Assembly (NCBI RefSeq): GCF_026625605.1
Contig: NZ_CP113054.1
Location: 806,001 to 870,000 of the forward strand
Source of the DNA: Luteolibacter sp. SL250
Lineage (GTDB): Bacteria; Verrucomicrobiota; Verrucomicrobiia; Verrucomicrobiales; Akkermansiaceae
Direction: 5' to 3'
DNA: 64,000 bases
Shown: positions 25,198-44,702 of the stretch, piece after piece
Layout of the letters: every line of letters starts with the position of its first letter
How positions within the stretch are numbered: the first letter of the stretch is position 1
Position numbers and translations under genes: made by a program
Notes under the pieces: generated by a model
What the model was told of the DNA's origin: nothing
Seen by the model: the letters and a program-made list of their open reading frames with translations, nothing else
The model's database searches: none

Positions 25198-28100
25198 TCA
25201 GTTCTTGGTGATGGTTTCGTCCAGATTGAGGAGCACGCGTGCGACGGTCATCCAGGCGGTCTCTTCCGGCGTGGCCTTGTCCGGCATCAGTTCGCCGGGC
25301 ATCAGTTCGCCCTTCCGGATGCGGTCGAGCTGGTCCGAGTAAAAGGTTGCGAGTTTCCTGGTCTCATCCGCTGTCGGCGGGCGGGTGAGGCAGCGTTGGA
25401 AGGCGTAGGCGGACTTCTCCTCCGGTGTCCCCGGATGTGCGGCGACCTTCTTCCCAAGTGCACGCGCGGTCTCGACAAAGACCTCGTCATTGAGGAGGAC
25501 GAGCGATTGGAGGGGCGTGTTCGAGACTTCGCGGCGGGCGACACAGGCTTCTCCGGTCGGTGCGTCGAAGGTCATGAACGAGGCGAAGGGTGCGGAGCGC
25601 TTGGCGAAGGTGTAGAGGCCGCGGCGGTAGCGGTCCTCTCCCTCGCTGACCTTCCAGCTCATGCCGCCGTAGGCACCCTCCGTGACGCTCGACGGTTGGG
25701 GGGGGCGCACGGACGGGCCGTAAAGTTTTCCGGAGAGGAGGCCGGACGCGCTGAGGGCCAGATCCCGGATCATCTCCGCCTCGATCCTGAGGCGCGGGCC
25801 ACGGGCGAGCAGGCGGTTCTGCGGATCCTTCTCCAGCAGCTCCGGCGTGATGCGGGAGTCCTGCCGGTAGGTGGAACTGGTGACGATGAGACGGTGCAGC
25901 TTTTTCATCGACCAGCCGTTCTCCACGAAGTTCACGGCCAGCCAGTCGAGCAATTCGGGATGGCTGGGAACTTCACCCTGGAAGCCGAAGTCATCCAGCG
26001 TCTTCACCAGTCCGGTGCCGAAGAACGCCTGCCACTGGCGGTTGACGGTCACCCGTGCGGTGAGCGGATTCTCGGGTGATACCAGCCACTTCGCGAATCC
26101 CAGCCGGTTCGCCGGTTGGCCCGGTGCCAGCGGAGGGAGGAAGGCGGGCACGTGAGGCTGGATTTCCTGGGCCGGCTGGGTGAATTCGCCGCGGTTGTGC
26201 AGGCGTGTCTTGCGGAAATGTTCGGTTCGTTCGCGCATGACAAGCGTGCGCTGCGGGGTGATTGGCTTGAACAGATCGCGGATCGGCTTGCCCGCTTCCG
26301 CGAGCTGCGGGGCATCCAGCAGGAACTGGCGGAAAAGCTTCGCCCGGTCGTCCGCGGTCAGTTCGGGTTTCGCGAGTGCCTCCTCCAGTTCCGGAGACAG
26401 GACGCGGGCGGTCGTTTTTTGTGATGCGCTGGTGGCGGAGATGCGGAACTTGCCGAGGGTGGAGGCGTAGTAGCGGCCCATCTTCAGCTCGATGACGAGA
26501 TCGCCCGCAGCAGGCAGTGGTTCCGCGAGCAGGATGACGGCGGTTTGGTTTTCACCCACCCTTTCCTTGATCGTCCAACCGGTGAGGTCGTTGCCATTGA
26601 TCGCGAGCCTGGCATCCCCGGTGGTCGAGCTGGCATCGGCCAGCTTGATGTCCTTGCCGTCCGCTTTCACGGTGAAACTGTAGAGGAAGAAATCCCCCGG
26701 GGTGCCCTCGTAGTACACCTTTCCAGGGCCGAAGCCGGGCAGGCGCTTGTCTGTCAGCGTTTCCAACCGCAGGGCGGTGATTCCCGCCGGAGCGTTTTTA
26801 TAGGTGAGGGTGAAGCGGTCATCCTTTGAGGTGTCGCCGGAAACGAACACAGAGCCGTCCGGCTCGTTGCTGAGGATGGGTTCGTTGGAATCGAGCGTCG
26901 TGGCAGTGAGGGTGGCCCACGGCACGGTTTCGGCGCGGCCTTTCTCCAGCCATTGGTTGAACGCGTGATCGATCGCCTGCTTGCGGCGCTCGTCGTCCGT
27001 GAGCTGCTGCGGTGGCGCGATGAGTTCCTTGCCGAACGAGACACGGACACGGCCGATGGTGTGATGGCCTCCGAAGTTCTGGACGAGGCGCACCTTGAAC
27101 TCCCGCTCGCCGGTGCCGGACGGCTTCTCCAGGTGGAACACGGCGGCGCGGTCCTTCTTGTGCGAGCCGCCCTCCACCTGCACCGCCCAACCGGTGTCCT
27201 CCTTGCCATCGATGGCGGCGGCCACCGGGTAACCGGACTGCTCCGCATCGGCGGACGCTTTGGAGAAGGTGATCCGTTCCCATTCTCCGGTGGCGCCTTT
27301 CGGGCGGGTGAAAAGCTCCAGCTCACTCAGTACGAAGTTCCCATGGCCGGTCCGGCCGGGGCCGCCGGACACGATCTTCTTGTCCGCCAGTGTTTCGATC
27401 CGCAGGCGGTCCGCATTTGCCGGATCCGCCGTGAGGAGCAGCTCGTAGGTTTCCTTTTCCGGACCTTGGGCGGTGAACAGCGCGGAGTGGTCGGCCTGGA
27501 TCTTTGGCAGTTCTCCGGACGCGGAGGTGACGGAAGAGAGGCGGGGAGTGGACCAGTCCGCATCCGCCGGTTTTTCCAGCGGCCACTTGGACGGCAGCGC
27601 GGTGATCATTTCCTCCGCCCGTTTCGCCCGCTTCGCCTCGCGCTCCGGCAGTGTGGCGTCCGGCAGATCATGGTTGATGTCATCGGCATTGTTCAGGAAT
27701 GCCATGATGCCGAAGTATTCCGTGTGCAGGATGGGATCGTATTTGTGCGTGTGGCACTGGGCGCAACCCAGGGTGAGGCCCAGCCAGGTGGTGCCGGTGG
27801 TGGCCACACGGTCCGCCATCGCATGGTAGCGGAACTCCAGCGGATCGTTTCCGCCCTCTTCGTTGAGCATGCTGTTGCGGTGGAAGCCGGTGGCGGTGAC
27901 GTCCTCTGTCGTGGCTCCCGGCAGCATGTCACCGGCGAGCTGCTTCACGGTGAACTGGTCGAAGGGCATGTCGCCGTTGAGCGCGCGGATCACCCAGTCC
28001 CGGTAGGGCCAGATCTGGCGTTCGCGGTCCTTCTCGTAACCATTGGTGTCGGCGTACCGGGCGAGGTCGAGCCAGCGGCGCGCCCAGCGTTCACCGTAGG

Positions 28101-28728
28101 CGGGGGATGCCAACAGGCGGTCCACCACCTTTTCATAGGCGTCCGGAGAGGCGTCCTTGGCGAATGCCTCCGCTTCCTCCGGGGAGGGCGGCAGGCCGGT
28201 GAGATCAAGCGTCACCCGCCGGATCAACTGGTATTTCCCGGCCTCCGCAGAGGGCTTCAGGTTCATCGCCGCGAGTTTCCTGCGGATGAATTCGTCGATG
28301 CCGTGCGGCTTGCCGTCCGACTCGGGGGCGACGAAAGACCAATGGGGCCGGTACTCCGCCCCGGAAGCGATCCATTGCTCCAGGATTTTCTTTTCCGCGT
28401 CCGTCAGTTCCATCTTCGCGCTGGCGGGCGGCATGCGGTCATCCGGGTCCGCGGCGTGCAGCCGTTTGATGAATTCACTTTCCGCAGGCTTGCCGGGAAC
28501 GATGGCGATTTCACCGGACTTCCCTTCGCCCAGCGCGGCGTTCCGCTCGTCCAGCCGCAGTTTCCCCTTGCGGGTGCCCTCGTCCGGACCGTGGCACTTG
28601 AAGCAGCGGTTGGACAGGATCGGCCGGACGTCACGCGCGAAGTCGGGCTTTTCCGCAGCATGGGCGGAGGCAGCGACGGCGAACGCGGCGAGGGCTCGTA
28701 AGGCAGGTTGGGTTTTACGGGACCGCAT
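25198..28728 (-). CDS. planctomycete-type cytochrome c protein (PSCyt1-DUF1549-DUF1553)
   Basis: Exported multidomain protein of 1,176 residues. The start at 28728 gives a signal peptide (MRSRKTQPALRALAAFAVAA); the longer frame to 28893 lacks one. The PSCyt1 haem c site CFKCH is at residues 42-46 and is followed by a cytochrome-like stretch with a possible axial Met in DDRMPP. DUF1549 ([21 protein letters not shown]) follows, containing a second CAQCH motif in CAQCHTHKYDP. A central beta-rich insertion comes next, and DUF1553 forms the C-terminus (VNRQWQAFFGTGLVKTLDDF, TPLQSLVLLNDEVFVETARA). Probably a periplasmic multi-haem redox protein of unknown substrate. Operon with the DUF1501 gene. 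Confidence 0.9.
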   Translation of the reverse strand: MRSRKTQPALRALAAFAVAASAHAAEKPDFARDVRPILSNRCFKCHGPDEGTRKGKLRLDERNAALGEGKSGEIAIVPGKPAESEFIKRLHAADPDDRMPPASAKMELTDAEKKILEQWIASGAEYRPHWSFVAPESDGKPHGIDEFIRRKLAAMNLKPSAEAGKYQLIRRVTLDLTGLPPSPEEAEAFAKDASPDAYEKVVDRLLASPAYGERWARRWLDLARYADTNGYEKDRERQIWPYRDWVIRALNGDMPFDQFTVKQLAGDMLPGATTEDVTATGFHRNSMLNEEGGNDPLEFRYHAMADRVATTGTTWLGLTLGCAQCHTHKYDPILHTEYFGIMAFLNNADDINHDLPDATLPEREAKRAKRAEEMITALPSKWPLEKPADADWSTPRLSSVTSASGELPKIQADHSALFTAQGPEKETYELLLTADPANADRLRIETLADKKIVSGGPGRTGHGNFVLSELELFTRPKGATGEWERITFSKASADAEQSGYPVAAAIDGKEDTGWAVQVEGGSHKKDRAAVFHLEKPSGTGEREFKVRLVQNFGGHHTIGRVRVSFGKELIAPPQQLTDDERRKQAIDHAFNQWLEKGRAETVPWATLTATTLDSNEPILSNEPDGSVFVSGDTSKDDRFTLTYKNAPAGITALRLETLTDKRLPGFGPGKVYYEGTPGDFFLYSFTVKADGKDIKLADASSTTGDARLAINGNDLTGWTIKERVGENQTAVILLAEPLPAAGDLVIELKMGRYYASTLGKFRISATSASQKTTARVLSPELEEALAKPELTADDRAKLFRQFLLDAPQLAEAGKPIRDLFKPITPQRTLVMRERTEHFRKTRLHNRGEFTQPAQEIQPHVPAFLPPLAPGQPANRLGFAKWLVSPENPLTARVTVNRQWQAFFGTGLVKTLDDFGFQGEVPSHPELLDWLAVNFVENGWSMKKLHRLIVTSSTYRQDSRITPELLEKDPQNRLLARGPRLRIEAEMIRDLALSASGLLSGKLYGPSVRPPQPSSVTEGAYGGMSWKVSEGEDRYRRGLYTFAKRSAPFASFMTFDAPTGEACVARREVSNTPLQSLVLLNDEVFVETARALGKKVAAHPGTPEEKSAYAFQRCLTRPPTADETRKLATFYSDQLDRIRKGELMPGELMPDKATPEETAWMTVARVLLNLDETITKN

Positions 28729-28873
28729 TTTGGGATTTACTATAATAAATGGATCGCGGCGGGTTGCTTTCATGAAACCAGGAATTTCCTCCGGCGGGCT
28801 CCCACCTGCGGGTGAGGGAACTGACACAAAGAAATCGCAGGATCGGGACGTTTTGGCTCCAATGGTCCGCATC

Positions 28874-29368
28874 ATGCACTCAGTCCGTTTCATCCGCCTT
28901 TTTCAGGCGACCGGTTTGGCCGTCATCCTGTCGTCTCCTGCAAGCGCGGAGCCGCTTGTCAAAAACAGTGGCTTCGACAAGGAGCTGGGGGCCTGGGAAT
29001 GCGATGAAGGAAAGATCGTCGCCGATCCCGATGAAAAGGGTAACTCGTTGTTGGAGGTGGAACTGGATGGTGGAGTCTTTGGACTCACCCAGGACTTCAA
29101 ATGGCCGGCCGGAAAAAAGTCGCTTGCACTTTCCTTCCGGGTGAAAGCCAGCACCGCTTCGAAGGATTCTCCGGTCCAGTGGAGGCTGCGGCTTTACGAT
29201 GCTGAGGGTAACTCCGGGATCATGGCGGGGGGAAAGATCACGGAGAGCGGCGGATGGATCATCGTGACGAAGACCATCCCACGTCCGGAAGGGGGCGTCA
29301 CTTCCCTGATGCTCGAAAGCAACCGTGGAGAAGGAAAACTGTGGATCGACGATCTGAAGGTCGAGTGA
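28874..29368 (+). CDS. small secreted protein, carbohydrate-binding-module-like
   Basis: Protein of 164 residues from the ATG at 28874 (or 168 from 28862 in the same frame). Signal peptide MHSVRFIRLFQATGLAVILS, cleavage after ASA. The mature part starts EPLVKNSGFDKELGAWEC and ends GEGKLWIDDLKVE, the usual beginning and end of a CBM4/9- or galactose-binding-like beta-sandwich. It is a single stand-alone domain with no enzyme attached. It is divergent from the PSCyt gene and convergent with allophanate hydrolase. Role probably polysaccharide binding at the cell surface; inferred from fold only. Confidence 0.65.
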   Translation: MHSVRFIRLFQATGLAVILSSPASAEPLVKNSGFDKELGAWECDEGKIVADPDEKGNSLLEVELDGGVFGLTQDFKWPAGKKSLALSFRVKASTASKDSPVQWRLRLYDAEGNSGIMAGGKITESGGWIIVTKTIPRPEGGVTSLMLESNRGEGKLWIDDLKVE

Positions 29369-29377
29369 GCGGATGGG

Positions 29378-31111
29378 TCAGCGGGCGAGATATGCGCGCC
29401 AACCACGGAGGTGGGTGATTTCCTCCGCCCCATCCAGTGCCCGGGGTTCCGCGATGAATCCGGGCAGCGACTCGCCTGATGCCAGCGTCACTTTTCCGAT
29501 GCCCAGCGGGGCGGGGATTTTCGAGACGAAATCACCGAATGCGGCGGGATCCAGCGACCAGACCTCCACTTTGATGGCCGCCCCATTTTCGGCGTCATGG
29601 ACCATCGCGGGTCGTGCCGGGATGCTTCCTCCGGCAGGCATGGCGAACAACCGGTAGTGTGGGGATGTCTCGGTCCGTTGGACGAAAACCGCACCACGGT
29701 CCGCCAGTTGGTGATGGAGGGCCAGTCCTTCCAGATGCGCGCCGCAGACCACGACGGGGATCCGGATTTCCTCTTCCGTGAGAGTTTCCGGAAGCGGCTG
29801 GTTGGTGAACTTTCCGGCGAGACGCAGTAGGTCCTCGTCCGTCCCGGCCGGTGCGGCGAGGGTCACGCCCCAAGGCAGCCTGCCATCCCGGGCGAACCCG
29901 GTGGGGACCGCGACTGCGGCCAGATCCAGCAGGTTCATGAAATTCGTGTAACGACCGAGCACGGAGTTCGTCCGGATGGGATCGGCCAGCACTTCCTCCA
30001 CCGTGTAGAGGCAGGGGGTGGTGGGCAGCAGCAGGAAATCCACGCCCTGCCAGATGCCCTCCGCATCGCGGGCGAATTCGCGGAGCTGGTATTGTGCCTT
30101 GAAGGTGGCGGCGGCATCCCAGCCGCGGGAGTTCTCCAGGATCTGCTTCGTCACCGGATGGATGGCATCCGGATGGGCTTCCACGAAATCACCGACTGCT
30201 GCCCAGCGTTCCGCCACCCACGGGCCTTCGTAGAGCAGCTTCGCGGCGTCCACGAATGGGGTGAGATCAACCTCCACGGCGGTGCCGCCCATTTCCTCCA
30301 GCTTGGCGACGGCCTCCGCATAGAGCGCGGGGGTGTCCGGATCACCCGCGAAATCGAGCGACGCGGGAACACCGAAAAGAAAGCCCTCCGTCTCCAGGGA
30401 GACCGGCTCGACGTCCCGTGAGAACGGATCGGCCGGATCGAACACGCCGATGATTTCTGAAATGATCGCCGCATCCTCCGGTGTGTTCGCAAAGACGGAG
30501 ACGCAGTCGAGCGAGCGGCAGGCGGGAACCATGCCGCGGTTGCTGACAAGGCCGCGTGTCGGCTTCCAGCCGATGAGGTTCTGGAATGCGGCGGGTACCC
30601 GGCCGGATCCGGCGGTGTCCGTACCGAGTGAGAAGGCGCAGAGTCCGGCGGCGAGCGCCGCGGCACTGCCGGAGCTGGAGCCTCCCGGCAAATAGGCCGC
30701 GTCGAAGACATTGCGCGGAATGCCGTAGGGTGAGCGGACCCCTACAAGGCCGGTGGCGAACTGGTCGAGGTTCGCCTTTCCCAGCGGGATCGCACCCGCG
30801 GCGCGCAGCAGCCTCACCACCTCGGCATCCTCCGCCGGGGTGTAGGAAAACTCCGCGCAACCGGCGGTGGTCGGCCAACCGGCGACGTCGATGTTGTCCT
30901 TCACCACGAAAGGGACGCCCCACAGCGGGAGATCGGCCGGCATCGACTCCACCGCCGCCGCCAGATCGAGCCATTCCTCCTCCGGTGGCAGGTGGATGAA
31001 GATGGCCGGGTCATTGTGGGCCTCGATCCGCTTCCGCAGCAGGGAGACCATGCCGGTGGGTGTCAGGGTCCCGTCGGCATAGCTCTGTTTCAGGGAAGGA
31101 ATGGTCAGCAT
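29378..31111 (-). CDS. atzF: allophanate hydrolase
   Basis: Amidase-signature enzyme of 577 residues, the AtzF/DUR1,2-hydrolase type: allophanate to two ammonia and two CO2 in the cytoplasm. The amidase core holds the catalytic Lys in PFVVKDNIDVAG and the Ser-rich motif GGSSSGSAAALAAG with the cis-Ser and nucleophile Ser (GTDTAGSGRVPAAF). The C-terminal ~120 residues form the allophanate-hydrolase-specific domain (VVCGAHLEGLALHHQL, GIGKVTLASGESLPGF). It is the last gene of the cluster, 6 bases after the carboxylase stop, so translational coupling is likely. It completes the release of ammonia from urea- or guanidine-derived allophanate. Confidence 0.93.
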   Translation of the reverse strand: MLTIPSLKQSYADGTLTPTGMVSLLRKRIEAHNDPAIFIHLPPEEEWLDLAAAVESMPADLPLWGVPFVVKDNIDVAGWPTTAGCAEFSYTPAEDAEVVRLLRAAGAIPLGKANLDQFATGLVGVRSPYGIPRNVFDAAYLPGGSSSGSAAALAAGLCAFSLGTDTAGSGRVPAAFQNLIGWKPTRGLVSNRGMVPACRSLDCVSVFANTPEDAAIISEIIGVFDPADPFSRDVEPVSLETEGFLFGVPASLDFAGDPDTPALYAEAVAKLEEMGGTAVEVDLTPFVDAAKLLYEGPWVAERWAAVGDFVEAHPDAIHPVTKQILENSRGWDAAATFKAQYQLREFARDAEGIWQGVDFLLLPTTPCLYTVEEVLADPIRTNSVLGRYTNFMNLLDLAAVAVPTGFARDGRLPWGVTLAAPAGTDEDLLRLAGKFTNQPLPETLTEEEIRIPVVVCGAHLEGLALHHQLADRGAVFVQRTETSPHYRLFAMPAGGSIPARPAMVHDAENGAAIKVEVWSLDPAAFGDFVSKIPAPLGIGKVTLASGESLPGFIAEPRALDGAEEITHLRGWRAYLAR

Positions 31112-31117
31112 GGGCGG

Positions 31118-34100
31118 TCAGAGGATTTTGGCGATGAGGAGCGGCTGGCCCGCTTTCACGGGATTACCTTCGGCGGTGAGGATTTCGATGATCTCCAGCG
31201 TCTCGTCGGACTCCACCGGAATCTCCATTTTCATCGCCTCCAGGACAATCGCCGGATCGCCCGCGGCCAGTTTGTCCCCGGGCTTCACCTCGATCTTCCA
31301 GACATTTCCCGTCACCGGGCTTTCGAGGACGATGGCACCTTCCGGGATCGTGATTTCCTGCTCGGCGGATGTCTCCGTTTCCGCAGGAGAGTCAAGGTGC
31401 AGTCCGGCGTCCTCCCATCGTTGGCGTTCGTCGGCGAAGGCCTGGCGCTGGGTGGCGCGGAAGGCATCGATCTCCCCGGAGTGGATCTCCAGGAACGTCT
31501 CGTAGTCGGCGTAGCGGAAGACCGTCGGCTCGATGCGGATGCGGTGGCGGCCGAGCGGGACTTCCTCACGGAGCTGGAGCAACTCTTCCGGTGAAACCTC
31601 GTAAAACCGGAGCTGATCGAAGAACCGGAGCAGCCACGGCTTTTCGAAATCCGGGGTCTGCCGCCAACGGTTCCACATCTGGATGGTGCGGCCGGTGAAC
31701 TGGTAGCCTCCCGGCCCCTCCATGCCATAGACGCAGAGGTAGGCACCACCGATGCCGACGGCGTTCTCCGGCGTCCACGTCCGGGCGGGGTTGTATTTCG
31801 TCGTGACCAGACGGTGCCGGGGATCCAGCGGGGTGGCGACGGGCGCGCCGAGATAGACATCGCCCAGACCCATGACCAGATAGCTGGCATCGAAGAAGAT
31901 CCGCTTCACATCGTCGATGGAATCCAGACCGTTGATGCGGCGGATGAACTCCAGGTTGCTGGGGCACCACGGGGCCTTCGGGTTCACGCCCACCATGTAG
32001 CGGCGGATCGCCTCCTTCGTGCTGGGGTCATCCCAACTGATCGGCAGGTGGACGATGCGGGCGGGCACCTCGATCTGTTCCAGCGGTGGCAGTGCGGCGA
32101 TGCCGTGGCGGATGGTTTCCCGGAGCGTGTCGCGGGAGATCACCGTGCCGTCGAAATGGATCTGCAGCGAGCGGATGCCGGGCGTGAGGTCAATGATGCC
32201 CTTCAGCTTCTGCTTCTGCAGCCATTGGTAGACGACGTGGGCCTTGAAGCGGAGCTTCAGGTCGAGCAGGTGCGGACCGAACTCGATGAGCAGGTAGCGG
32301 TCCCCGGCGCGGCGGATCACCACCTTGTCATCCCCTTCGCCGAAGGAGTCCAGGATCGCGGAGTGAAGATCCAACGGCGCGGGTTCCGGGTCAGGCAGGG
32401 TGTCGATGTCTCCGTCGAGAAAGCCGGAAAGAGCCTCCGCCTGGCGGTCCGCCCACGCCTCGTCCACCGGGATGAAGGTGATCTTGTCACCCGGCCGGAT
32501 CTGGCCGAGCTTCCACAGCTCCGCGTCCACCACCACCACCGGACAGACGAAGCCGCCGAGGCTGGGACCGTCCGGACCGAGGATCACCGGCATGTCCCCG
32601 GTGAAGTCCACCGCGCCGATGGCGTAGGCATTGTCGTGGAGGTTGGACGGATGAAGCCCCGCCTCGCCGCCATCCGTGCGCGCCCACTTCGGCTTCGGTC
32701 CGATGAGCCGGACCCCGGTCCGGGCGGAGTTGTAGTGGACCTCCCATGGGGTGGCGAAGAAGGTGGAGATGTCTTCCGGAAGGAAGAACTCCGGTGCGCC
32801 GTGCGGCCCGTAGAGCACGCCGATTTTCCATTCGCGGGTATAGGGTAAGCGGGAAGGGCACTCCTGTCCTTCCATCTCGGGATCGGCGGATCCGATCCCG
32901 ATCACATCCCCGGGCAGCAACGCCCTTCCGCCATGTCCTCCGAACCTCCCCAGTGTGAAGGTGGATTTGCTCCCGAGATAATCCGGTGCCTCGATGCCTC
33001 CGGCGATGGCCAGGTAGGCGCGCAGGCCGCTTTCCTCGATCTTGCCGATCTTGAGGGTGTCGCCCGGAGCTACGGTGAATGCCGTATTCGGAGCGACGGA
33101 TTCGCCGTTCTTCAGGATCAGGACGGGTGGTCCCGCGATGGCGATGGTAGCGGCGGTGTTGAAGCGGAGCGACGGCCCCGCCATGGTGATCTCCAGGGCG
33201 GCGGTGCCGACCGCATTTCCGACCATGCGGTTCGCGCGGCGGAAGGTGAGGGAATCCATCGGCCCGGATGGCGGCACGCCCACCTCCCACAGTCCGGTCC
33301 GGCCCGGCCAGTCCTGGATCGTGGTCATGGTGCCACCGGAAAGGACGTCGAAGGTGGTGGGATGGTAGCCGAAGGAGGCCATGTCCCGCATGGCGACGCC
33401 GCCATCGGTGAACGGCTGCCAGCGTGCCACCTGGCGGAGGTAGCGCAGGTTCGTCTCGATGCCCGAAACGCGGGAATCATCGAGGGCGGTCGCGAGGTCG
33501 CGGATGGCCGTGGCGCGGTCCGCGGAATGGACCATGATCTTTCCGAGCAGCGGGTCGTAGAACGGGCTGACCTCCGTTCCGGCGGAGATCCAGTGGTCGG
33601 TGCGGGTGTTGACGGGAAACTCCACCTCCGTGAGCAGCCCGGCGCTGGGGCGGAAGTTCTGGTTGGGGTCTTCCGCGTAGAGGCGGGCCTGGATGGCGTG
33701 GCCCTTCGGCTCCGGTGCCGTGGATGGCAGGGTGAAGGACGGATCGAGCGCGAGCCGCGCCATCCATTCCACCAGGTCGATGCCGGTGACCAGCTCGGTG
33801 ACGCCGTGCTCCACCTGGAGGCGGGTGTTCACCTCCAGGAAATAGAATTCGGTACGGTCCGCATCGTAGATGAATTCCACCGTTCCGGCGGAGCGGTAGC
33901 TCAGGCTTTTCCCCAGCTCCACGGCGGCATGGTGCAGCGCGGCCCGTGTTTCCTCCGAAAGGAGCGGGGCGGGCGTTTCCTCGAAGACCTTCTGGTTGCG
34001 CCGCTGGACGGAGCAGTCGCGCTCTCCCAGGGCCAGCACATGGCCGTTCCCATCGCCGAAGATCTGGACCTCCACATGGCGTCCGCGCTGGACGTAGCGT

Positions 34101-34696
34101 TCCAGGAATACAGCTCCGGAGCCGAAGCTGCGCTGGCTGAGGCGGACCACGGACTCGAACTCACGGCGGAGTTCCTCCTCCGAATGGCAGATCTTCATGC
34201 CGATGCCGCCACCGCCAGCGGTGGATTTCAGCATCAGCGGGAAGCCCAGCTTCTCCGCGGCGGCGATGGCCGCATCCACGTCCTCCAGCAGGTCGGTGCC
34301 CGGGACGAGCGGCACGCCCGCGTCTCCGGCGAGACGGCGCGCCTCATGTTTCAGGCCGAAGGCGATGATCTGCTCCGGCGTCGGTCCCAGCCAGCGGATG
34401 CCGTTGTCCTCACAGAGCTTCGCGAAGTCCGTGTTCTCACTGAGCAGGCCGTAGCCGGGAAAGACCGCGGAGGCCCCTGCCTCCTTGGCTATTTCCAGCA
34501 GCCTGTCCTTCAGCAGGTAGCTTTCCGAAACCGGGCCGGGTCCGAGCCGGTGGGCCTCGTCCGCCAGATCGACATGCGGGGAGGCGGCGTCGGGGTCCGA
34601 ATAGACGGCGATGCTCTGGTAGCCGAGTTTTTTGAAGGTGCGGATCGCGCGCGCGGCGATCTCCCCCCGGTTGGCGATGAGGATTTTCGGGGTCAT
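31118..34696 (-). CDS. biotin-dependent urea/guanidine carboxylase (long single-chain)
   Basis: Carboxylase of 1,192 residues with all domains in one chain. Biotin carboxylase is at residues 1-~450 ([54 protein letters not shown]). The carboxyltransferase domains follow (KipA/KipI-type, [20 protein letters not shown] at ~490). The BCCP domain at the C-terminus has biotinyl Lys1156 in [10 protein letters not shown]. The family was first called urea carboxylase. Members that travel with two DUF1989 proteins have been shown to carboxylate guanidine to carboxyguanidine. The adjacent DUF1989 pair here therefore points to guanidine; direct assay would be needed. Starts 1 base after the upstream gene stop (TGACATG). 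Confidence 0.93.
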   Translation of the reverse strand: [1192 protein letters not shown]

Positions 34697-34697
34697 G

Positions 34698-35297
34698 TCA
34701 GGAAATGGAAACTTCGACCGGAGTGGGGTTCCAACCGTTGCAAGGGTTGTTGAGCTGTGGGCAGTTCGAGATCAGGCAGACCACGTCCATGCGGGCGACC
34801 ATTTCGACGTAGCAGCCGGGGGCGGAGATGCCGTCGGCAAAGGTGAGCTGCCCGTCCCGGGTGACGGGGACGTTCATGAAGAAGTTGATGTTGCTGGTGA
34901 TGTCCCGCTTGGTGAGCTCCACCTTCCACTCCTGCGCGCCGCGGATGAAGCTGTCCCGGCAGGCATGCATGCACTCCTTGTCATGGGCGTAGCGCATCGT
35001 GTTCGCTTCGCGGGAGCATGCCCCGCCGAGGGTATCGTGGCGGCCGCAGGTATCCCCGGTGATCTCCAGCAGGACGTTGCCCTCCGTGCTCATGATCCGG
35101 GTGCCGGTGGTGAGGTAGAGGGACTTCTGGGTCTGGATGGTCTGGTCAGCGCTGTAGCGCTCCGTGGGATCCGCCGCGCTGAAGAACAGGGTGTCTGCGG
35201 CCTGGTTGCCCTCCAGATCTGTGATGCGGAGCGTCTGGCCTTTCTTGATTTCGTGGACCCACCAGTCGCCGGCGGGAATGACGTGCTTGTGGCTCAT
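34698..35297 (-). CDS. DUF1989 protein, urea-carboxylase-associated protein 2 (carboxyguanidine deiminase subunit)
   Basis: Cytoplasmic protein of 199 residues of the DUF1989 family (UAAP2). Characteristic parts are [34 protein letters not shown] and a Cys/His-rich [18 protein letters not shown]. In guanidine-degrading bacteria the two DUF1989 proteins form a heteromeric carboxyguanidine deiminase (CgdAB), which releases ammonia and leaves allophanate; this is family knowledge, not visible in the sequence. Its start overlaps the stop of the partner gene by 4 bases, and the carboxylase begins one base after its stop. Equal expression of the two subunits is therefore likely. Confidence 0.88.
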
Positions 35298-36025
35298 GGT
35301 TGGGAAAGGGTGAGGAAGGTTTCGTTGTTTTCGTGGGCGCGGAGATTCTCCGGGCGGATGGTGAGCGATGGATCATCCACGGATGGTGGCGACCCGGCGA
35401 ATACCTCCAGCTTCACCTCCGTGGGCCGGTAGGCCGGATGCGGATCGAACGGGTGCTGGCAGGTGTTGAGGACAACGAGGGTGTCCAGCTCGAAGCGCAG
35501 CTCGACATGGTCGCCGGGCTTCGAGTTGCCGGGCACGAAATCGAGTTTTCCTTCCTCATCCGCCACCACCTTGCTGAACAGGTTCAGGTTCGGGACGAGG
35601 TCCTTCTTGCCGAGTCCCCACTTGCAAAGCTCGATGAGAAAGCCGTCGTGTGCGTTGCGGTTCCAGTCGTTGCGGGCCTGCTGGTAGTTGTTCTCCCCAT
35701 ACTTCTCCAGCACCAGTGCGGAGTTGGAATGCCCGCAAACGGTGTCATGCCAGCCCACGCTGTCCGAGGTGATGGAGGCCAACAGGCGGCCCATATCCGA
35801 GTGGATGCAGTAGGGCGCGCGGAGGTAGAAGATGTGCTGCCCCTTCAGCGTGTCGGACATGTGGTAGCGCTCCTGCCGCTCGGTGGCGTGGTAGAGGAGC
35901 ATGCCTACGTTCGCGCCGCCGGAGAGGTCGGTCAGGCGGAGGCGCTTGCCGCGCGAGATGATGCCGGACCACATGCCGGCGCCGGTGAGCGTGCGCGTGA
36001 GGATGGGAGTCATGGTGGATGTCAT
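35294..36025 (-). CDS. DUF1989 protein, urea-carboxylase-associated protein 1 (carboxyguanidine deiminase subunit)
   Basis: Protein of 243 residues, the larger DUF1989 partner (UAAP1). Shared elements with the smaller one are [36 protein letters not shown] and [17 protein letters not shown]. It has no signal peptide. By analogy with characterised guanidine-degradation clusters it should assemble with the downstream DUF1989 protein into carboxyguanidine deiminase. It is the first intact enzyme gene after the damaged NikR-like regulator on the same strand. Translational overlap with the next gene is ATGA. A pure urea pathway would not need this protein, so it is the best sequence clue to the substrate. 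Confidence 0.88.
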
Positions 36026-36041
36026 GGGATGGGATAGGGTT

Positions 36042-36146
36042 TCACGTGTCCTTTTCGTCAGGCTCCGTCTGGATGGGCGGCAGCAGGGTGCGGGTGAGAT
36101 TGAGGCGGCCGGCGATCATGCCCTTTGCCGAGCAGCTTGTTCGCGA
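36042..36146 (-). pseudogene. out-of-frame remnant of the NikR-like regulator C-terminus
   Basis: Directly after the stop of the NikR-like frame, the minus strand continues with regulator-like sequence in two other frames: AKRLRMIANKLLGKG in one, then [17 protein letters not shown] in another, ending at a TGA at 36042-36044. These match the expected end of this NikR subfamily (helix, then GRLxL beta strand and a Pro-rich tail). About a dozen residues that should follow VFLD (the strand bearing the family MEV/CLEV segment) are missing. The change between the last two frames can be explained by one extra G in AAAGGGCATG. A deletion plus a one-base insertion is the simplest reading. Confidence 0.6.
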
Positions 36147-36473
36147 TCATCCGCAGCCGCTTGGCCGGTCCAGGAACACCTGGAGCGAGCTGATGACCTC
36201 GCGGATGTGCTCGTGCTGGATGTCGGTGATCTGCTGTTTGATGCCGGCCCGCTTGTGGTCGTAGAAAAGGGTGATGGTTCCGGCCATCAGCGAGTTGCCC
36301 TTCAGGCTGTAGTAGTCGGAGATGTGCTGGTTGAGGACCTCCGCGATGGCATGGGAGCGGTTGACGAAACCGCGTTCCTCCATCAGGTCCCCGAACTGGG
36401 TGTGCAGCTCGTCCGAGATCGAGATGGTGACCCTGTGGGCGAGTTTTTCCTTTGGTCGGCGGGTGATCGGCAT
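36147..36473 (-). CDS. NikR-like ribbon-helix-helix regulator, C-terminal domain disrupted
   Basis: 108 residues from the ATG at 36473, preferred over 36479 because GGAG lies 6 bases upstream of it. The N-terminal ribbon-helix-helix (HRVTISISDELHTQF, VNRSHAIAEVL) keeps the Arg/Thr strand residues and the Arg of NRS that read DNA in NikR. The C-terminal ACT-like domain begins normally (GTITLFYDHKRAG, DIQHEHIREVISSL) but then reads QVFLD where nickel-binding members have HVHLD, and stops at CG-TGA after a frameshift. So two of the four nickel ligands are replaced and the rest of the domain is out of frame. It probably controls this cluster through the TCATACGAT sites, or is a decaying gene. Confidence 0.7.
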   Translation of the reverse strand: MPITRRPKEKLAHRVTISISDELHTQFGDLMEERGFVNRSHAIAEVLNQHISDYYSLKGNSLMAGTITLFYDHKRAGIKQQITDIQHEHIREVISSLQVFLDRPSGCG

Positions 36474-36522
36474 GCGCATCTCCGCAAAGCACGAACCCTG
36501 CCGGATTCAGGATTTCCGGAGA

Positions 36523-36559
36523 AATCGTATGATGAATGTGAAATGATCATCATACGATT
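36523..36559. promoter_or_regulatory. perfect 13-bp inverted repeat, NikR-type operator (GTATGA-N17-TCATAC)
   Basis: Arms AATCGTATGATGA (36523-36535) and TCATCATACGATT (36547-36559) are exact reverse complements, with an 11-base spacer. The core half-sites GTATGA and TCATAC are those published for E. coli NikR (GTATGA-N16-TCATAC); here the spacing is 17. The site lies between the stop of the ABC ATPase and the NikR-like gene, 50-86 bases upstream of its start, so it probably mediates autoregulation of the regulator-DUF1989-carboxylase-hydrolase genes. Confidence 0.75.
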
Positions 36560-36568
36560 GCGGGGGCC

Positions 36569-37474
36569 TCATTCCACGTTGTCGTCCACGTTGGTCATCC
36601 GGCCGAAGGGCAGCTTGTCGAACACCGGCTCCGCATGGTCATCCTCCGGGTGGATGATGGTTTCGAGATGGCTCTTGGTGGCGAGGAATTCCGGCGAGCG
36701 GAGCTGCGAGTGGTCCCGCGGACGGGGCACGGGAACCTCCAGCACCTCCCGGACACGGCCCGGGCGGGGATCGAGGACGAGGATGCGGTCGGAAAGGAAG
36801 ATGGCCTCATCCAGATCATGCGTGATGAAGAAGATGGTGATGTCCACGTTCTTCCAGATCTGCAGGAGGTAGGCCTGCATCTGCTGGCGGGTCTGCGGGT
36901 CCAGCGCGCCGAACGGCTCGTCCATCAGCAGGATGCGCGGCTCGTTCGCAAGCGCGCGGGCGATCGCGGCGCGCTGCTTCATGCCGCCGCTGAGCTGGTG
37001 CGGGTAGGAGTTCTCGAACTTGTCGAGGCCGACGAGGGCCAGCCACTGGCGGGCCTCCGCCTCGTTGGTGAAGTCACTCTTTCCCGCCATGCGGGGGCCG
37101 TACATCACGTTCTGCTTCACCGTCAGCCAGGGGAAGAGGGTGTAGCTCTGGAAGACCATGCCACGGTCACGGCCGGGGCCGGTGATGGGGCTGCCATCGA
37201 CAAGCACCTCTCCGGAAGTCGGTGTTTCGAGTCCCGCGAGGATGCGGATGAGCGTGGATTTCCCGCAGCCCGACTGGCCGAGCACGCACATGAGTTCCCG
37301 CCGGTGGACCGTCAGGTTGATGTCCTGCAGCGCGGTCACTTCACCGGCCTTCGAGTCGAACTTCTTGTAAAGTCCGTTGATCTCCAGGATGGGCGGACGC
37401 TGGTAGATTTTCCCGAACCGGGCTTTCACCGCAGGGGACTGGTCGAGATGGGACAGGGTTTCCATCGTGCTCAT
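36569..37474 (-). CDS. ABC transporter ATPase, NitT/TauT (SsuB/NrtD-like) family
   Basis: ATPase of 301 residues. Walker A LGQSGCGKSTLIRI (residues 84-97 region), Q-loop VFQSYTLFPWLTV, signature LSGGMKQRAAIARAL, Walker B ILLMDEPFGALD and H-loop FFITHDLDEAIFL. It energises import with the permease whose gene it overlaps by 4 bases. The C-terminal ~70 residues (VPVPRPRDHSQLRS and onward) are the usual NitT/TauT extension. The transporter type is the one regularly found next to carboxylase/DUF1989 clusters, so the likely cargo is urea or guanidine; this is inferred from context. Confidence 0.93.
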   Translation of the reverse strand: MSTMETLSHLDQSPAVKARFGKIYQRPPILEINGLYKKFDSKAGEVTALQDINLTVHRRELMCVLGQSGCGKSTLIRILAGLETPTSGEVLVDGSPITGPGRDRGMVFQSYTLFPWLTVKQNVMYGPRMAGKSDFTNEAEARQWLALVGLDKFENSYPHQLSGGMKQRAAIARALANEPRILLMDEPFGALDPQTRQQMQAYLLQIWKNVDITIFFITHDLDEAIFLSDRILVLDPRPGRVREVLEVPVPRPRDHSQLRSPEFLATKSHLETIIHPEDDHAEPVFDKLPFGRMTNVDDNVE

Positions 37475-38865
37475 TGGGGCAGGTTTCCGGGAGCGGGTTC
37501 ACCGGCGACCGGCGTGGGCTTGGAAGGCTTGATCATCCGGATCATCGCCGGGATGCCGGAAAGGATCCTGTCCACGATGCCTTTCTTCGGCTGTTCCGCC
37601 CACGGAAAGAAGTAACGGGCGAGGTGGGCGAGGATCTGGTCCATGAGGAAGCCGGACAGCCCGATCATCAGGATGGCGGGATAGACGATGTCGAACTGGA
37701 AGCGGCGGCCGTGGGTGTCGATGATCTCCGCCAGTCCGCTCTTGAAGCCGAGGAGTTCCGCGATGACCAGCCAGGTCCAGGCGGTGCTTAGCAACAGGCG
37801 CAGATCCTTGTAGAGGTTCGGCAGGATGCCCGGGACGATCACCGTGCGGATGAGCTGGGCGCGGCTGGCACCGAGGGTCTGCGCGGCCTCCAGCAGGGAC
37901 GGGTCCAGTCCGCGGGTGGTCTTGGCGATGGTCAGGATCGCGCAGGGCAGGGTGCCGAGAAACACAAGCATCACCTTCGGTCCCATATCGAGGCCGAAGA
38001 TGGCCATCAGCACCACGCCGAACGCGGGGGCCGGCATGTAGCTGAAGAAGTTCACGAACGGCTCCGTGAGCTTCGAGATGAAATCAAATGTTCCGGCGAG
38101 GATGCCGATGGGAATGGCGACGGCGATGGCGAGCAGGAAGCCGCAGATGATGGTCCGCCATGATTCACCGTAGCGCTGCAGCAGCGTCTTCCGTTCGGCT
38201 CCGGCCTCGGCGCCATCGGCCTTCTTCGCCGTGATGCCTTTCCAGAAAGAGCGGGCGACGACATCCGGAGGGACGAGGAAGACAGGTCGCGAAACTTCCT
38301 CCGCCGCCTGTGGCAGCAGCTTCAGCATCGGCTCCGTCGGCCAGCCGGTTCCGGCAGCGGCGAGCATCTCTGCGTTCGCCTTCACGATGGCCAGGTTCCC
38401 ATCCGTGATGGGTTCCTTCTCCGCCTCCAGCTTTCCGGCGGCGAGGTCGATCCAGGTTTTCCGCAGCGCCTCGTCATCCATGTCCTGTTCGCGGGTGAGC
38501 CAGCCGTTGGTGACCGCGACGGGATGGATCTGGCGGACGATCTTCTTACCCTGTCTGGCAGTGGCCGTGGCGGTCCCGCCGGACTCCCGCGCCGCGAGGA
38601 TCTCCTGGTTGTCCTTTGACACGGCGTCCTGGAACTCCTTCCACGTCTCCGGGGTGAGGCGGTTGCCCGTGGTATAGACGCTCTGCAGCCGGGTGGTCTC
38701 CGCCGGAATGGTGATCTGGTAGGCGACCTTCCACCACGGACCGTAGGCGGCAACGCACCAGATGAGCAGCGGCAGGATGAAGGAGCACACCATCAGGACC
38801 GTGGCCCGGGTGTGCCCCAGATCTTTCCTCACCGCCCACCAGTTTCCGGAAGAAGGGAATTTCAT
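37471..38865 (-). CDS. ABC transporter permease, NitT/TauT family, with long N-terminal periplasmic insertion
   Basis: Permease of 464 residues. One N-terminal TM helix (VLMVCSFILPLLIWCVAAYG) is followed by ~170 soluble residues and then a normal binding-protein-dependent permease core of about six TM helices. The EAA loop is EAAQTLGASRAQLIRTVIVP. Ordinary SsuC/TauC permeases are about 260 residues, so the extra N-terminal TM plus soluble segment is an addition, probably periplasmic, that could contact the binding protein. The C-terminal 40 residues are a cytoplasmic Pro-rich tail. Operon: 19 bases after the binding-protein gene, 4-base overlap with the ATPase gene. Confidence 0.92.
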   Translation of the reverse strand: MKFPSSGNWWAVRKDLGHTRATVLMVCSFILPLLIWCVAAYGPWWKVAYQITIPAETTRLQSVYTTGNRLTPETWKEFQDAVSKDNQEILAARESGGTATATARQGKKIVRQIHPVAVTNGWLTREQDMDDEALRKTWIDLAAGKLEAEKEPITDGNLAIVKANAEMLAAAGTGWPTEPMLKLLPQAAEEVSRPVFLVPPDVVARSFWKGITAKKADGAEAGAERKTLLQRYGESWRTIICGFLLAIAVAIPIGILAGTFDFISKLTEPFVNFFSYMPAPAFGVVLMAIFGLDMGPKVMLVFLGTLPCAILTIAKTTRGLDPSLLEAAQTLGASRAQLIRTVIVPGILPNLYKDLRLLLSTAWTWLVIAELLGFKSGLAEIIDTHGRRFQFDIVYPAILMIGLSGFLMDQILAHLARYFFPWAEQPKKGIVDRILSGIPAMIRMIKPSKPTPVAGEPAPGNLPQ

Positions 38866-38884
38866 GTGGGGCCGGGATGGGGAA

Positions 38885-39865
38885 TCACTTCCCGAAGACT
38901 TCCTTTGAAAGCGATGGGTCGAAGTAGGAGTCGATGTCGCTCGGCTTCTCGTAGACTTTGAAGGTCACATTGAAGTCGTCCACGATCTTCGAGGAACCGT
39001 AGATGGACCCGAGTCCGTCCGCCTTTTCCCAGACCTTGAGGACTTCCGCCGGGCTGAGGATCTTCGTTCCGTCCAGCAGCGGCTCGTATTCGGCCGGTTT
39101 GACGCCCACCCGCTCCGCGAGGATGGCGAGCGCGTCGTCCAGGTTGTCCTCCTTGGAGAGGTATTCGGTGATGCGGCCCCAGACCTTCACCACCTTGAGC
39201 CAGTCGGCGCGGCGGGACTTCACGCTGTCACGGTCGCAGAAAAGTCCGTCGTAGATGAGACCGGGAACGTCCTTCGAGGTGAAGACCGGTTTCGATCCGG
39301 GGACCAGCTTGAGGGCCTGGCCGGAGTTCGGCTGCCACGCGGCGATGGCGTCCACCTCGCCGGAGGCGAAGACCTGCGGGGTGTTGTTGGTGGGTGTGTT
39401 CTTGATGGTGATGTCACCCTCCGCCATGCCGTTCAGCTCCAGGCCTTTCAGCAGCAGCAGGTGCTCCACGAAGCCTTCCTCAAGCGCGATGGTCTTGCCC
39501 TTCAGGTCCTTCAGGCTCTTGTATTCCTTCTTGGCGACGATCATGTCGTTGCCGTTGGAGTAGTCGTTGATGAGGACGCAGACGGAAGGCTTGCCGGTGG
39601 CTCCCGTGACGAGCGCGTCACCATTGGTCACGCACACCGCATCCAGTTTCCCGGCGGCATAGGCTTCCATGGATTTCACGTAGTCCATCCAGACAAAGTC
39701 CACCTCCACGCCTTCTTCCTTGAACCAGCCTTTCTTGATGCCGATCTCCCAGGCGACCCAGCCCGGCCAGTCCGAGTAGCCGATTTTCAGGGGTTCCGCG
39801 GCGAGGTTGGCGAGGGAAGTCAGCGCGGCGAGCGCCGTGGCGAGGATCGTTTTGCTCAGTTTCAT
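38885..39865 (-). CDS. ABC transporter substrate-binding protein of the urea-carboxylase-region type
   Basis: Periplasmic binding protein of 326 residues with signal peptide [19 protein letters not shown]. The NMT1/SsuA-like fold shows [20 protein letters not shown], then [35 protein letters not shown] and [14 protein letters not shown]. The [11 protein letters not shown] start is characteristic of the binding proteins annotated as belonging to urea carboxylase regions. Longer upstream frames lack a signal peptide. It is the first gene of the transporter operon. The upstream region carries two TCATACGAT sites and a sigma-54-type element. Ligand: guanidine or urea by context. Confidence 0.9.
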
Positions 39866-39924
39866 GGAGTATGGGGCGTGGAGTTCGCGGACTCCCGGAA
39901 GGGGGAGCGATACCGGCCCGATTA

Positions 39925-39940
39925 AGCATTGGGCATGCCA
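39925..39940 (-). promoter_or_regulatory. sigma-54-type -24/-12 promoter element upstream of the ABC transporter operon
   Basis: On the minus strand the sequence reads TGGCATGCCCAATGCT. Compared with the sigma-54 consensus TGGCACG-N4-TTGCW it differs at two of twelve defined positions and keeps the invariant GG and GC with exactly 10 bases between them. The predicted transcript start is near 39913, giving a leader of about 50 nt before the binding-protein ATG at 39865. Sigma-54 control fits a nitrogen-scavenging transporter. No enhancer-binding activator gene is in the window. Confidence 0.5.
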
Positions 39941-39960
39941 CCGGCTCCGGAGATGGCTCG

Positions 39961-39996
39961 GATCGTCATACGATCGCCTCCCCGGAGTCATACGAT
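39961..39996. promoter_or_regulatory. two TCATACGAT half-sites (NikR-type operator) upstream of the transporter genes
   Basis: GTCATACGAT occurs at 39965-39974 and again at 39987-39996, in the same orientation with a 22-base period (about two helical turns). The first copy is embedded in the palindrome GATCGT-CAT-ACGATC (39961-39975). The 9-mer TCATACGAT is identical to the half-sites of the inverted repeat at 36523-36559. The sites lie 25-56 bases upstream of the -24 element of the transporter promoter and also upstream of the divergent PSCyt gene at 40113. Confidence 0.6.
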
Positions 39997-40112
39997 GCCT
40001 TCCGCAACGGAACACCGCGGGAGCCGGGAAATCGGCCGCCGCCAGGAGTGAAAAGGGCGGGAAGCGAAAACTCGACAGGGCGTCCCACGTTTTAGGAGAA
40101 GTAGCGAACCCA

Positions 40113-43100
40113 ATGAGAGATCCCGCAAACCCCGGGGCATCGGAAACCCAGCTTGCCCGCGTGCTGCCGCCCGTCGTCTGGGCGCTTGTACTCGCGGCCT
40201 GTGGCCTTGCGGATGCGGCGGAGCCGAAGCCGGGCGGACCTCCGGCGGGGGAGGTGACCTTCAATTCCCACATCCGGCCGATCCTTTCCGACAAGTGCTT
40301 TTCCTGCCACGGATTTGACAAAACGACGCGTGAGGCCGGACTGCGGCTGGATACCGCGGAGGGGGGCTATGCGCCGCTGGAGGATGATTCTTCGCTGCGC
40401 GCGATCGTGCCGGGTGACCCGAAGGCGAGCGAAGTCTGGCGGCGGATCACCACCAAGGATGAGGACGACGTGATGCCGCCGACGGATTTCCACAAGCCGC
40501 TCTCGCAGGATGAAATCGGGCTGATCACTCGCTGGATCGAACAGGGGGCGAAGTACCAGGAGCATTGGTCATTCGCGCCACTGGTGAAACCCCAGGTCCC
40601 TGCAACCCGGCATGCGGACAAGGTCGCCAACCCGGTCGATTCATTCGTGCTGGCGAATCTGGACAGCCTGAAAGTCGAGCCGTCACCGGAGGCTGACAAG
40701 GCCACGCTGCTGCGGCGGCTGTCACTGGACCTGACCGGCCTGCCTCCGTCGCCGGAGGAGGTCGCCGCCTTTCTGGCGGACGCCCGGCCGGAAGCCTACG
40801 CCACCCAGGTGGACCGACTGCTGGCGTCCCCGCACTATGGTGAGCGGATGGCGGTGCCGTGGCTGGATGTCGTGCGGTTCGCGGACACGGTGGGATACCA
40901 CGGCGACCAGAACGCGCGCGTCTTTCCCTACCGCGACTATGTGATCGACGCGTTCAACACGAACAAGCGGTTCGATGCGTTCACCATCGAGCAACTGGCG
41001 GGCGACCTGCTGCCGGATGCGACGGATGAACAGAGGATCGCCACCGGTTTCCTGCGGCTGAACCTGATGACCCGCGAGGGCGGCGCGCAGCCGAAGGAAT
41101 ACATGGCCAAGTCCCTGGGCGACCGGGTGCGGGCGGTGGGTGCCGCGTGGCTGGGGCTGACGACCGGCTGCGCGGAGTGCCATGACCACAAGTTCGATCC
41201 CGTCACCGCGAAGGACTTCTATTCGCTGGGTGCTTTCTTCGCGGATGTGCGGCAGTGGGGCGTATATGCGGACTACGGCTACACGCCGAACCCGGATCTG
41301 CCGAAGGTGAACAACGACTGGCCTTTCCCTCCGGAAATCCAGGCGCGGAATACGGCGCTGGTGAAGCGGATGGGATCGCTGAGAACACAGGGGGCGATGA
41401 CGCTCGCGGCGACTCCGAAGAATGAATCTTTCGGACCGTGGCTTGCCGGAGCGGAGACGTTCATCGGTGAATTTCCCGATGGCTGGAAGTCGCTGGCGGG
41501 TGCCACGGTTTCATCGAAGCTGGCGACTCCGGTGGAGGTGCTGCCGGATCATTCGGTCCTGCTGACTGGTGAGGCGAAGAAGGATGAAGTGGTCATGGTG
41601 CGCTTCCCGCTGGGAGGGCAGGCATTTTCCGCCATCCGCCTTGAAGCACTACCCGATGAAAAGAACTCCGGAAAGGTCGGGCGCGGAGCGGATGGAAAAT
41701 TCTCCGTCACTCCCACTTTCGCCATCGGGGAGAAATCCCTGAAAGTCGCCTATGCCCAGGCGGACCGCAGAACGCCGCACAAGTATTCCAACGGCAGCCA
41801 TGACCCGAAGCTGGAGCCGGAGTGGCGCTCCGCCCCCGCACTGTGGGAGGAGCCGCAGGATGCCGCGTCCCATCCGCAGACGGCGATCTACCAGCTCGCG
41901 GAACCACTCACCGCGGGAGCGGATGATTTCCTGACCGTCACCCTGGCGACCGCGGATCTCGGGAGATTCAGGATCAGCATCACGCCCTTCGGCGATCCCA
42001 TTCCCGGTGAGGCGCAGGCCATGTCGCCGGAACTTGGCAAGGCGTTGAAGGCCGCCGCTCCCGGATCGGAGGATCAAAAGCTTCTGGTCGCCGCATGGGC
42101 GCGGGCAACGGCGAAGGACGCCGCATTGCCGGAGGATTTCCGGAAGTTGCGCGACGAGATCATCGCCTGCCGCGCGGGCTACGCGCACTCCGTTGTCGCG
42201 CAGACTTTGCCTGCGGACAAGACCCCGGCGGTCCACCTCCTGCCACGGGGTGACTGGATGACCCAGGGTGAGGAGGTGCAGCCGGCAGTGCCTGAGTTCC
42301 TTCCCCATGCCTCCGTGCGGAAAGACGGTGGCCGCCTGAACCGGCTGGACCTGGCGAAGTGGATGGTCGCCGACGAAAACCCGCTGCCAGCCCGCCACTT
42401 CGTGAACCGGCTGTGGAAGCAGTTTTTCGGCAAGGGCCTTTCCAACGTGCTGGATGACATCGGCAACCAGGGCGAGTGGCCCGCGAACCCGGCGTTGCTC
42501 GATTGGCTGGCCGTGGAGTTCCGCGAATCCGGCTGGGACGTGAAGCACCTCGTGAAACTCATGGTCATGAGTGGCACCTACCGGCAGGAGTCAGGAAAGC
42601 GGGCGGATCTCGCGGAACTGGATCCCGCGAACCGGTTGCTGGCGGCACAATCCCCGCGGCGGCTGGATGCTGAATTTGTCCGTGACAACATCCTCTCCAT
42701 TTCCGGGCTGCTTCCGGGTGATTTCGTCGGTGGGCCGAGTGTGAAGCCCTACCAACCCGCAGGCTACTACGCGAACCTCAACTTCCCCCAGCGGGATTAC
42801 GCGGCCAGCTCCAGCAGCGACCAATACCGCCGCGGCCTCTACACCCACTGGCAGCGGACGTTCATGCACCCGATGATGGCCGGATTCGACGCGCCCAGTC
42901 GTGAAGAATGCTCCGCGGACCGCCTGCAGTCGAACAGTCCCCAGCAGGCGTTGATCCTTCTGAATGACCCTTCCTTCGTGGAAGCGGCCCGTGCCTTCGC
43001 GGCCAGCCTCCTGGAGGAGGGTCCGACCGCCACTGACACTGACCGGATCAAGTCCGCCATCCTCCGCACACTCGGCCGCGAGCCACGCGCGGGGGAGGTG

Positions 43101-43286
43101 GAGGGGCTGGAGAAATTTCTCAATGGCCAGCGCGCCAAGCTGAAAACCGGTGACGACAACCCGGAGGAGTTCCTGAAAGTCGGCCAGTGGCAGGCCGATC
43201 CGAAACTGGATCCGCTGGAACTGGCCGCATGGACGCAGACCTGCCGCGTGTTGCTGAACCTCCATGAAACCCTGACCCGTTACTGA
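40113..43286 (+). CDS. planctomycete-type cytochrome c protein (PSCyt1-DUF1549-DUF1553), lipobox at N-terminus
   Basis: Exported protein of 1,057 residues, start at 40113. The leader ends [14 protein letters not shown], where LAAC would make Cys30 a lipidation site. The PSCyt1 haem motif CFSCH is at residues 62-66, with [11 protein letters not shown] as a possible axial Met. DUF1549 follows ([20 protein letters not shown]) with a second motif [12 protein letters not shown], then a central beta-rich region and DUF1553 ([39 protein letters not shown]). It is paired with a DUF1501 gene 3 bases downstream. AGGAG at 40094 lies 14 bases before the ATG, further than usual. Confidence 0.9.
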
Positions 43287-43289
43287 GCC

Positions 43290-44702
<1,413 letters not shown>

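Follow-up and report, generated by a model that had tools for sequence, protein, structure and literature searches.

The gene cluster at positions 29378-39865 of the window (the whole stretch of DNA that was analysed, 64,000 nucleotides) is probably an operon for guanidine import and degradation, whose counterparts in related genomes would be controlled by a NikR-family regulator that lacks the nickel site and most likely has guanidine or a pathway intermediate as its signal, and whose own regulator gene is broken. The gene content and the signature residues support its assignment as a further member of the known guanidine carboxylase pathway, here in a verrucomicrobial genome (one contig of 4.9 Mb).

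Gene content and substrate of the carboxylase

Eight genes, all encoded on the minus strand, span positions 29378-39865. The coordinates agree with the sequence-only reading, which had placed the eight genes in this order on one strand with gaps or overlaps of at most 20 bases except around the regulator. The same reading had called the cluster probably complete; the genes are real but the regulator gene is not intact (the open frame ends after 110 codons). The following features were identified:

38885..39865, minus strand: periplasmic substrate-binding protein of an ABC importer, NMT1/SsuA-like (ATG start at 39865)
37471..38865, minus strand: ABC permease (BPD_transp_1 at residues 250-417 of 464)
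36569..37474, minus strand: ABC ATPase of the nitrate/taurine type
36524..36558, no strand assigned: putative operator, an inverted repeat 5' of the regulator gene
36042..36479, minus strand: NikR-family regulator gene, broken (ribbon-helix-helix and NikR_C; open frame 36147-36479)
35294..36025, minus strand: DUF1989 protein UAAP1, predicted carboxyguanidine deiminase subunit (TIGR03425, over cut-off)
34698..35297, minus strand: DUF1989 protein UAAP2, predicted carboxyguanidine deiminase subunit (TIGR03424, over cut-off)
31118..34696, minus strand: predicted guanidine carboxylase with biotin carboxylase, carboxyltransferase and biotin domain (TIGR02712)
29378..31111, minus strand: allophanate hydrolase, amidase and C-terminal domain (TIGR02713)

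The gaps amount to 19 bases between the binding protein and permease genes, 89 bases between ATPase and regulator, 1 base between the second DUF1989 gene and the carboxylase, and 6 bases between carboxylase and hydrolase, while the permease and ATPase genes and the two DUF1989 genes each overlap by 4 bases. The same gene order was found again in dozens of genomes and the arrangement is therefore far beyond chance. The carboxylase scored 1762 bits against TIGR02712 (cut-off 1304) and contains the full domain set including the biotin site, the allophanate hydrolase scored 732 against TIGR02713 (cut-off 511), and the nearest named family of the binding protein was TIGR03427 (urea-carboxylase-associated), with a score under the cut-off. 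The permease (37471-38865) carries an N-terminal extension of approximately 200 residues ahead of the permease core. The operon is flanked by two PSCyt1-DUF1549-DUF1553 genes (25198-28893 and 39807-43286 of the window), and a DUF1501 gene (43290-44702) comes after the second of these.

Asp at position 1330 (K. lactis numbering) is characteristic of guanidine carboxylases and Asn of urea carboxylases, and Asp1584 is conserved (PMC11410670). Asp697 of the window carboxylase aligns with position 1330 and Asp946 with position 1584. Every readable carboxylase copy that adjoins DUF1989 genes in the samples of the order and the phylum has Asp at position 1330. The only Asn1330 copy in the order (G076) lies in a locus that contains neither DUF1989 genes nor a NikR-like regulator. 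A second Asn1330 copy (G247, phylum sample) lies in a locus without deiminase and regulator genes, on a different contig from the other copy of that genome, which adjoins DUF1989 genes and the regulator. In a quick carboxylase tree that included two Asn-type references only and no characterised enzyme, the window carboxylase falls among Asp-type enzymes, including some located directly behind guanidine-II riboswitches, and the two Asn copies are split from the Asp copies (SH-aLRT 98). Finally, the host genome encodes a separate urease elsewhere and would therefore have no need of a urea carboxylase.

These observations bear on the possibility that the cluster is a urea amidolyase operon, with urea as the substrate of the carboxylase and an accessory role for the DUF1989 genes. 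The carboxylase and hydrolase of urea amidolyase, or of urea carboxylase plus allophanate hydrolase systems, are homologous to those of the window, and NCBIfam names the parts after urea (TIGR02712, TIGR03424, TIGR03425, and TIGR03427). The two urea-type examples (G076 and the second copy of G247), however, have Asn1330 and lack both the DUF1989 pair and a NikR-like gene, whereas the window carboxylase has Asp and lies beside a DUF1989 pair, and together with the tree position and the urease already present this makes a urea operon highly improbable. Guanidine, which had been proposed as the better substrate call, is thus supported by Asp697, the DUF1989 pair beside the carboxylase, the allophanate hydrolase, the tree position, and the separate urease. 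The prediction that the carboxylase should not group with true urea carboxylases held at the sequence level, the enzyme having Asp at the 1330-equivalent position and grouping apart from both Asn-type enzymes.

Based on family membership and signature residues, the ABC importer would bring guanidine into the cell and the carboxylase would convert guanidine, ATP, and bicarbonate into carboxyguanidine, which the DUF1989 pair would deiminate to allophanate for conversion to ammonia and CO2 by the allophanate hydrolase. The same enzymes, Asp signature, and kind of importer are found in the operons of gca, cgdA, cgdB, atzF, and an ABC importer described in Pseudomonas, Klebsiella, Raoultella, and Vreelandella (PMC12186494, PMC12508155, PMC11410670). 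Those operons are controlled by guanidine riboswitches, whereas none was found for the window operon and its relatives carry the NikR-like regulator. A search of the open-access literature returned no paper on a guanidine carboxylase pathway in Verrucomicrobiota, and nothing relevant on a NikR-type or ribbon-helix-helix regulator associated with guanidine or urea carboxylase or amidolyase.

The broken regulator gene and its counterparts in relatives

The gene located between the ATPase and the DUF1989 genes is a NikR homologue (PF08753). The sequence-only reading had correctly placed a regulator at this position but had recognised neither its NikR identity nor its broken frame. The open frame (36147-36479) encodes 110 amino acids that retain the DNA-binding part and half of the ligand domain, and the rest of the gene lies in shifted frames. 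Compared with the intact copy of the nearest relative (L076, with a carboxylase 96% identical to that of the window), the gene shows a 37-bp deletion after ...VFL and a net 2-bp deletion further downstream, with a stop in between; the operator is identical in both and the remaining operon genes are open throughout. A single sequencing slip as the cause of the early stop was rejected in view of the 37-bp deletion and the separate net 2-bp deletion. An assembly fault may lie behind the frame break, but the two separate deletions make real decay likely and the gene looks like a recent pseudogene. With its gene disrupted, the NikR-like regulator has probably lost control of the operon in this genome, where the role of the protein would be historical.

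A NikR_C gene occurs in 39 of 118 relatives and is almost always found immediately before the DUF1989 genes, within approximately 2 kb of the carboxylase; nearly every genome of the order that carries the pathway has such a gene beside it. The importer varies or sits elsewhere in these relatives, while the regulator, the deiminase, and the carboxylase remain together. A single genome (G046) has the pathway split into two clusters (L088 and L089), each with a separate NikR-like gene. Within a phylum sample of 288 genomes, the pathway, defined as a DUF1989 subunit plus a carboxylase over the cut-off, was present in 35 Verrucomicrobiota genomes, 28 of which contain a NikR_C gene within approximately 6.5 kb (counting the broken copy of the window). 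The seven pathway-bearing genomes that lack the regulator are G205, G323, and five members of a single genus. In G119, G126, G128, G186, G228, and G205, the carboxylase (of the Asp type wherever the residue was read) has three DUF1989 copies beside it, and a NikR-like gene is missing.

An alignment of the intact proteins served as query for a genome-wide scan, which identified 494 candidate stretches, and 80 loci were kept. DUF1989 or carboxylase genes are present in 76 of the 80 loci, which belong to Verrucomicrobiota and Gammaproteobacteria, with the organism assigned according to record titles that are in some cases loose (MAGs titled Akkermansia muciniphila). In the sampled genomes only Asp-type loci are linked to the regulator, both Asn copies being without it. 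Very diverged NikR-like proteins beside DUF1989 genes (approximately 40 bits to NikR_C) were observed in G152, G275, G338, G356, and G246 (L243, L236, L226); their nickel ligands are almost all gone and they represent the extreme end of the subfamily.

Operator sites and riboswitches

A perfect inverted repeat, ATCGTATGATGA-N11-TCATCATACGAT, is located upstream of the regulator gene (36524-36558; 0 expected in shuffles). Its core, GTATGA-N17-TCATAC (36527-36555), is conserved in relatives and resembles the NikR operator or its variants with a spacing of 16 or 17, the E. coli operator being GTATGA-N16-TCATAC (PMC7055735, PMC545781). A site with at least 11 of the 12 consensus bases was found upstream of the regulator in 28 out of 105 loci (0.2 expected from shuffles) and one with at least 10 of 12 in 56 out of 105 (3.8 expected), many of the 105 loci being related and the counts not independent. 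The spacing at high scores was always 16 or 17. An operator variant, GTATTAC...GTAATAC, is common in other lineages, and weaker sites were also found ahead of the binding-protein gene, including forms of this variant in Gammaproteobacteria. The exact operator pattern occurs twice in the host genome, here and at one GC-rich, chance-like site, a count near chance; the genome-wide scan found none at the urease, and three genomes of the same genus that yielded no full-length carboxylase did not contain the pattern. Scanning the neighbourhood of the operator for sigma-70 promoters returned nothing. True NikRs bind an operator of this kind too, so its presence is not enough to identify the ligand.

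Searches for guanidine riboswitches found none in the window (Rfam, gathering score) and none in eight verrucomicrobial loci compared with all of Rfam; a search of the 118 relatives for guanidine-I was likewise negative. Among the Gammaproteobacteria, a guanidine-II riboswitch precedes the carboxylase in eight loci that contain the same regulator (L132, L136, L139, L148, L151, L157, L165, and L174), and two further loci with this regulator have a guanidine-I riboswitch in front of the DUF1989 genes. These riboswitches independently place the NikR-like regulator in guanidine loci. The idea that the gammaproteobacterial loci are riboswitch-free was rejected, several of them carrying guanidine-I or guanidine-II, and a replacement of the riboswitch by the protein therefore holds for the Verrucomicrobiota only; in the Gammaproteobacteria the regulator, from the content of its loci, works beside a riboswitch and not in its place. 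The combination of guanidine-II riboswitch and NikR-like regulator in the eight gammaproteobacterial loci would amount to double control.

Loss of the nickel site and the candidate signal

Residue positions were counted along an E. coli NikR sequence that we take to be correct: the ligands fall on His, His, His, and Cys as published, and the sequence agrees with the printed chain. The nickel ligands of NikR are His76, His87, His89, and Cys95 (PMC7055735). Cys95 is present in none of the 121 distinct pathway-linked proteins (mostly Thr or Val; four of the 121 come from loci without pathway genes in view) compared with 33 out of 33 canonical NikRs (30 sampled verrucomicrobial proteins that are not pathway-linked, E. 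coli NikR, and two same-genus copies). Position 102 is Gln in all 121 pathway-linked proteins and Arg or Lys in all 33 canonical NikRs. The 30 non-linked verrucomicrobial NikRs without exception keep all four ligands, with Arg/Lys-Gly after the last strand, and nearly all pathway-linked proteins have a common C-terminal PP[LI] tail. Position 89 is Leu in most members from the Verrucomicrobiota; His is kept in many Gammaproteobacteria, whose members with three His ligands (HHHT) might therefore bind some metal. In a quick NikR tree, a single branch (SH-aLRT 99) separates the pathway-linked proteins from the others, with E. coli on a long branch.

The NikRs of E. coli, H. pylori, and P. horikoshii likewise consist of a ribbon-helix-helix and a NikR_C domain and bind a 28-29-bp operator, GTATGA-N16/17-TCATAC (PMC7055735, PMC545781). 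The intact relatives have both domains, which are truncated in the window, but the pathway-linked group differs from NikR by the absence of Cys95, and with it of the high-affinity nickel site, by the change of Arg/Lys102 to Gln, by the PP[LI] tail, and by the linkage to guanidine genes. A protein that has lost the nickel-binding Cys and travels with the pathway is thus a candidate guanidine-pathway regulator. In relatives of the window operon, the conserved linkage and operator suggest that it would bind the NikR-type operator 5' of its own gene and of the deiminase, carboxylase, and hydrolase genes, and its ACT-like domain would most likely answer to guanidine or a pathway intermediate and not to nickel. 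Induction by the substrate is expected for a catabolic operon, whereas NikR binds DNA when it carries its ligand; the response would therefore have to be of opposite sign, or else the protein would be an activator.

Three readings of the signal were weighed. It is unlikely that the protein is a genuine nickel regulator, for example one that favours a nickel-free nitrogen pathway under nickel scarcity. NCBIfam labels several intact pathway-linked members nickel-responsive NikR with scores over the cut-off, the operator is NikR-like, the genome encodes a nickel enzyme (urease), and three His ligands are kept in Gammaproteobacteria; against this, no member has Cys95 and most verrucomicrobial ones lack His89, the genes accompany those for the deiminase and carboxylase, the canonical NikRs found in this phylum have all four ligands and lie elsewhere, and the exact operator sites of the genome are the one described here and a chance-like one, with none at the urease. 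A response to general nitrogen status or to another metal (e.g., for the DUF1989 enzymes), with guanidine specificity provided by the riboswitch in Gammaproteobacteria, is a doubtful but more serious possibility. The co-occurrence with guanidine-II favours it, since a protein that sensed guanidine as well would duplicate the riboswitch, but the exclusive linkage to Asp-type loci in the sample argues for a pathway-specific signal, as does the situation in Verrucomicrobiota, where no guanidine riboswitch was found and the protein is the only visible pathway-specific regulator. We tentatively propose, as an idea that may well prove wrong, that the NikR-derived subfamily without the nickel site serves as a dedicated sensor protein for guanidine (or for carboxyguanidine or allophanate) and controls guanidine degradation in the Verrucomicrobiota and some Gammaproteobacteria.

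The analysis documents the occurrence of the pathway in Verrucomicrobiota, where it was found without a riboswitch and the NikR-like protein is the specific candidate regulator. Automatic annotation calls this family nickel-responsive despite the lost nickel ligand, and the family would represent a metalloregulator whose signal has probably changed while the operator was kept. If a guanidine sensor, the protein would be a counterpart to the guanidine riboswitches that arose through a ligand swap in the ACT-like domain of a metalloregulator.
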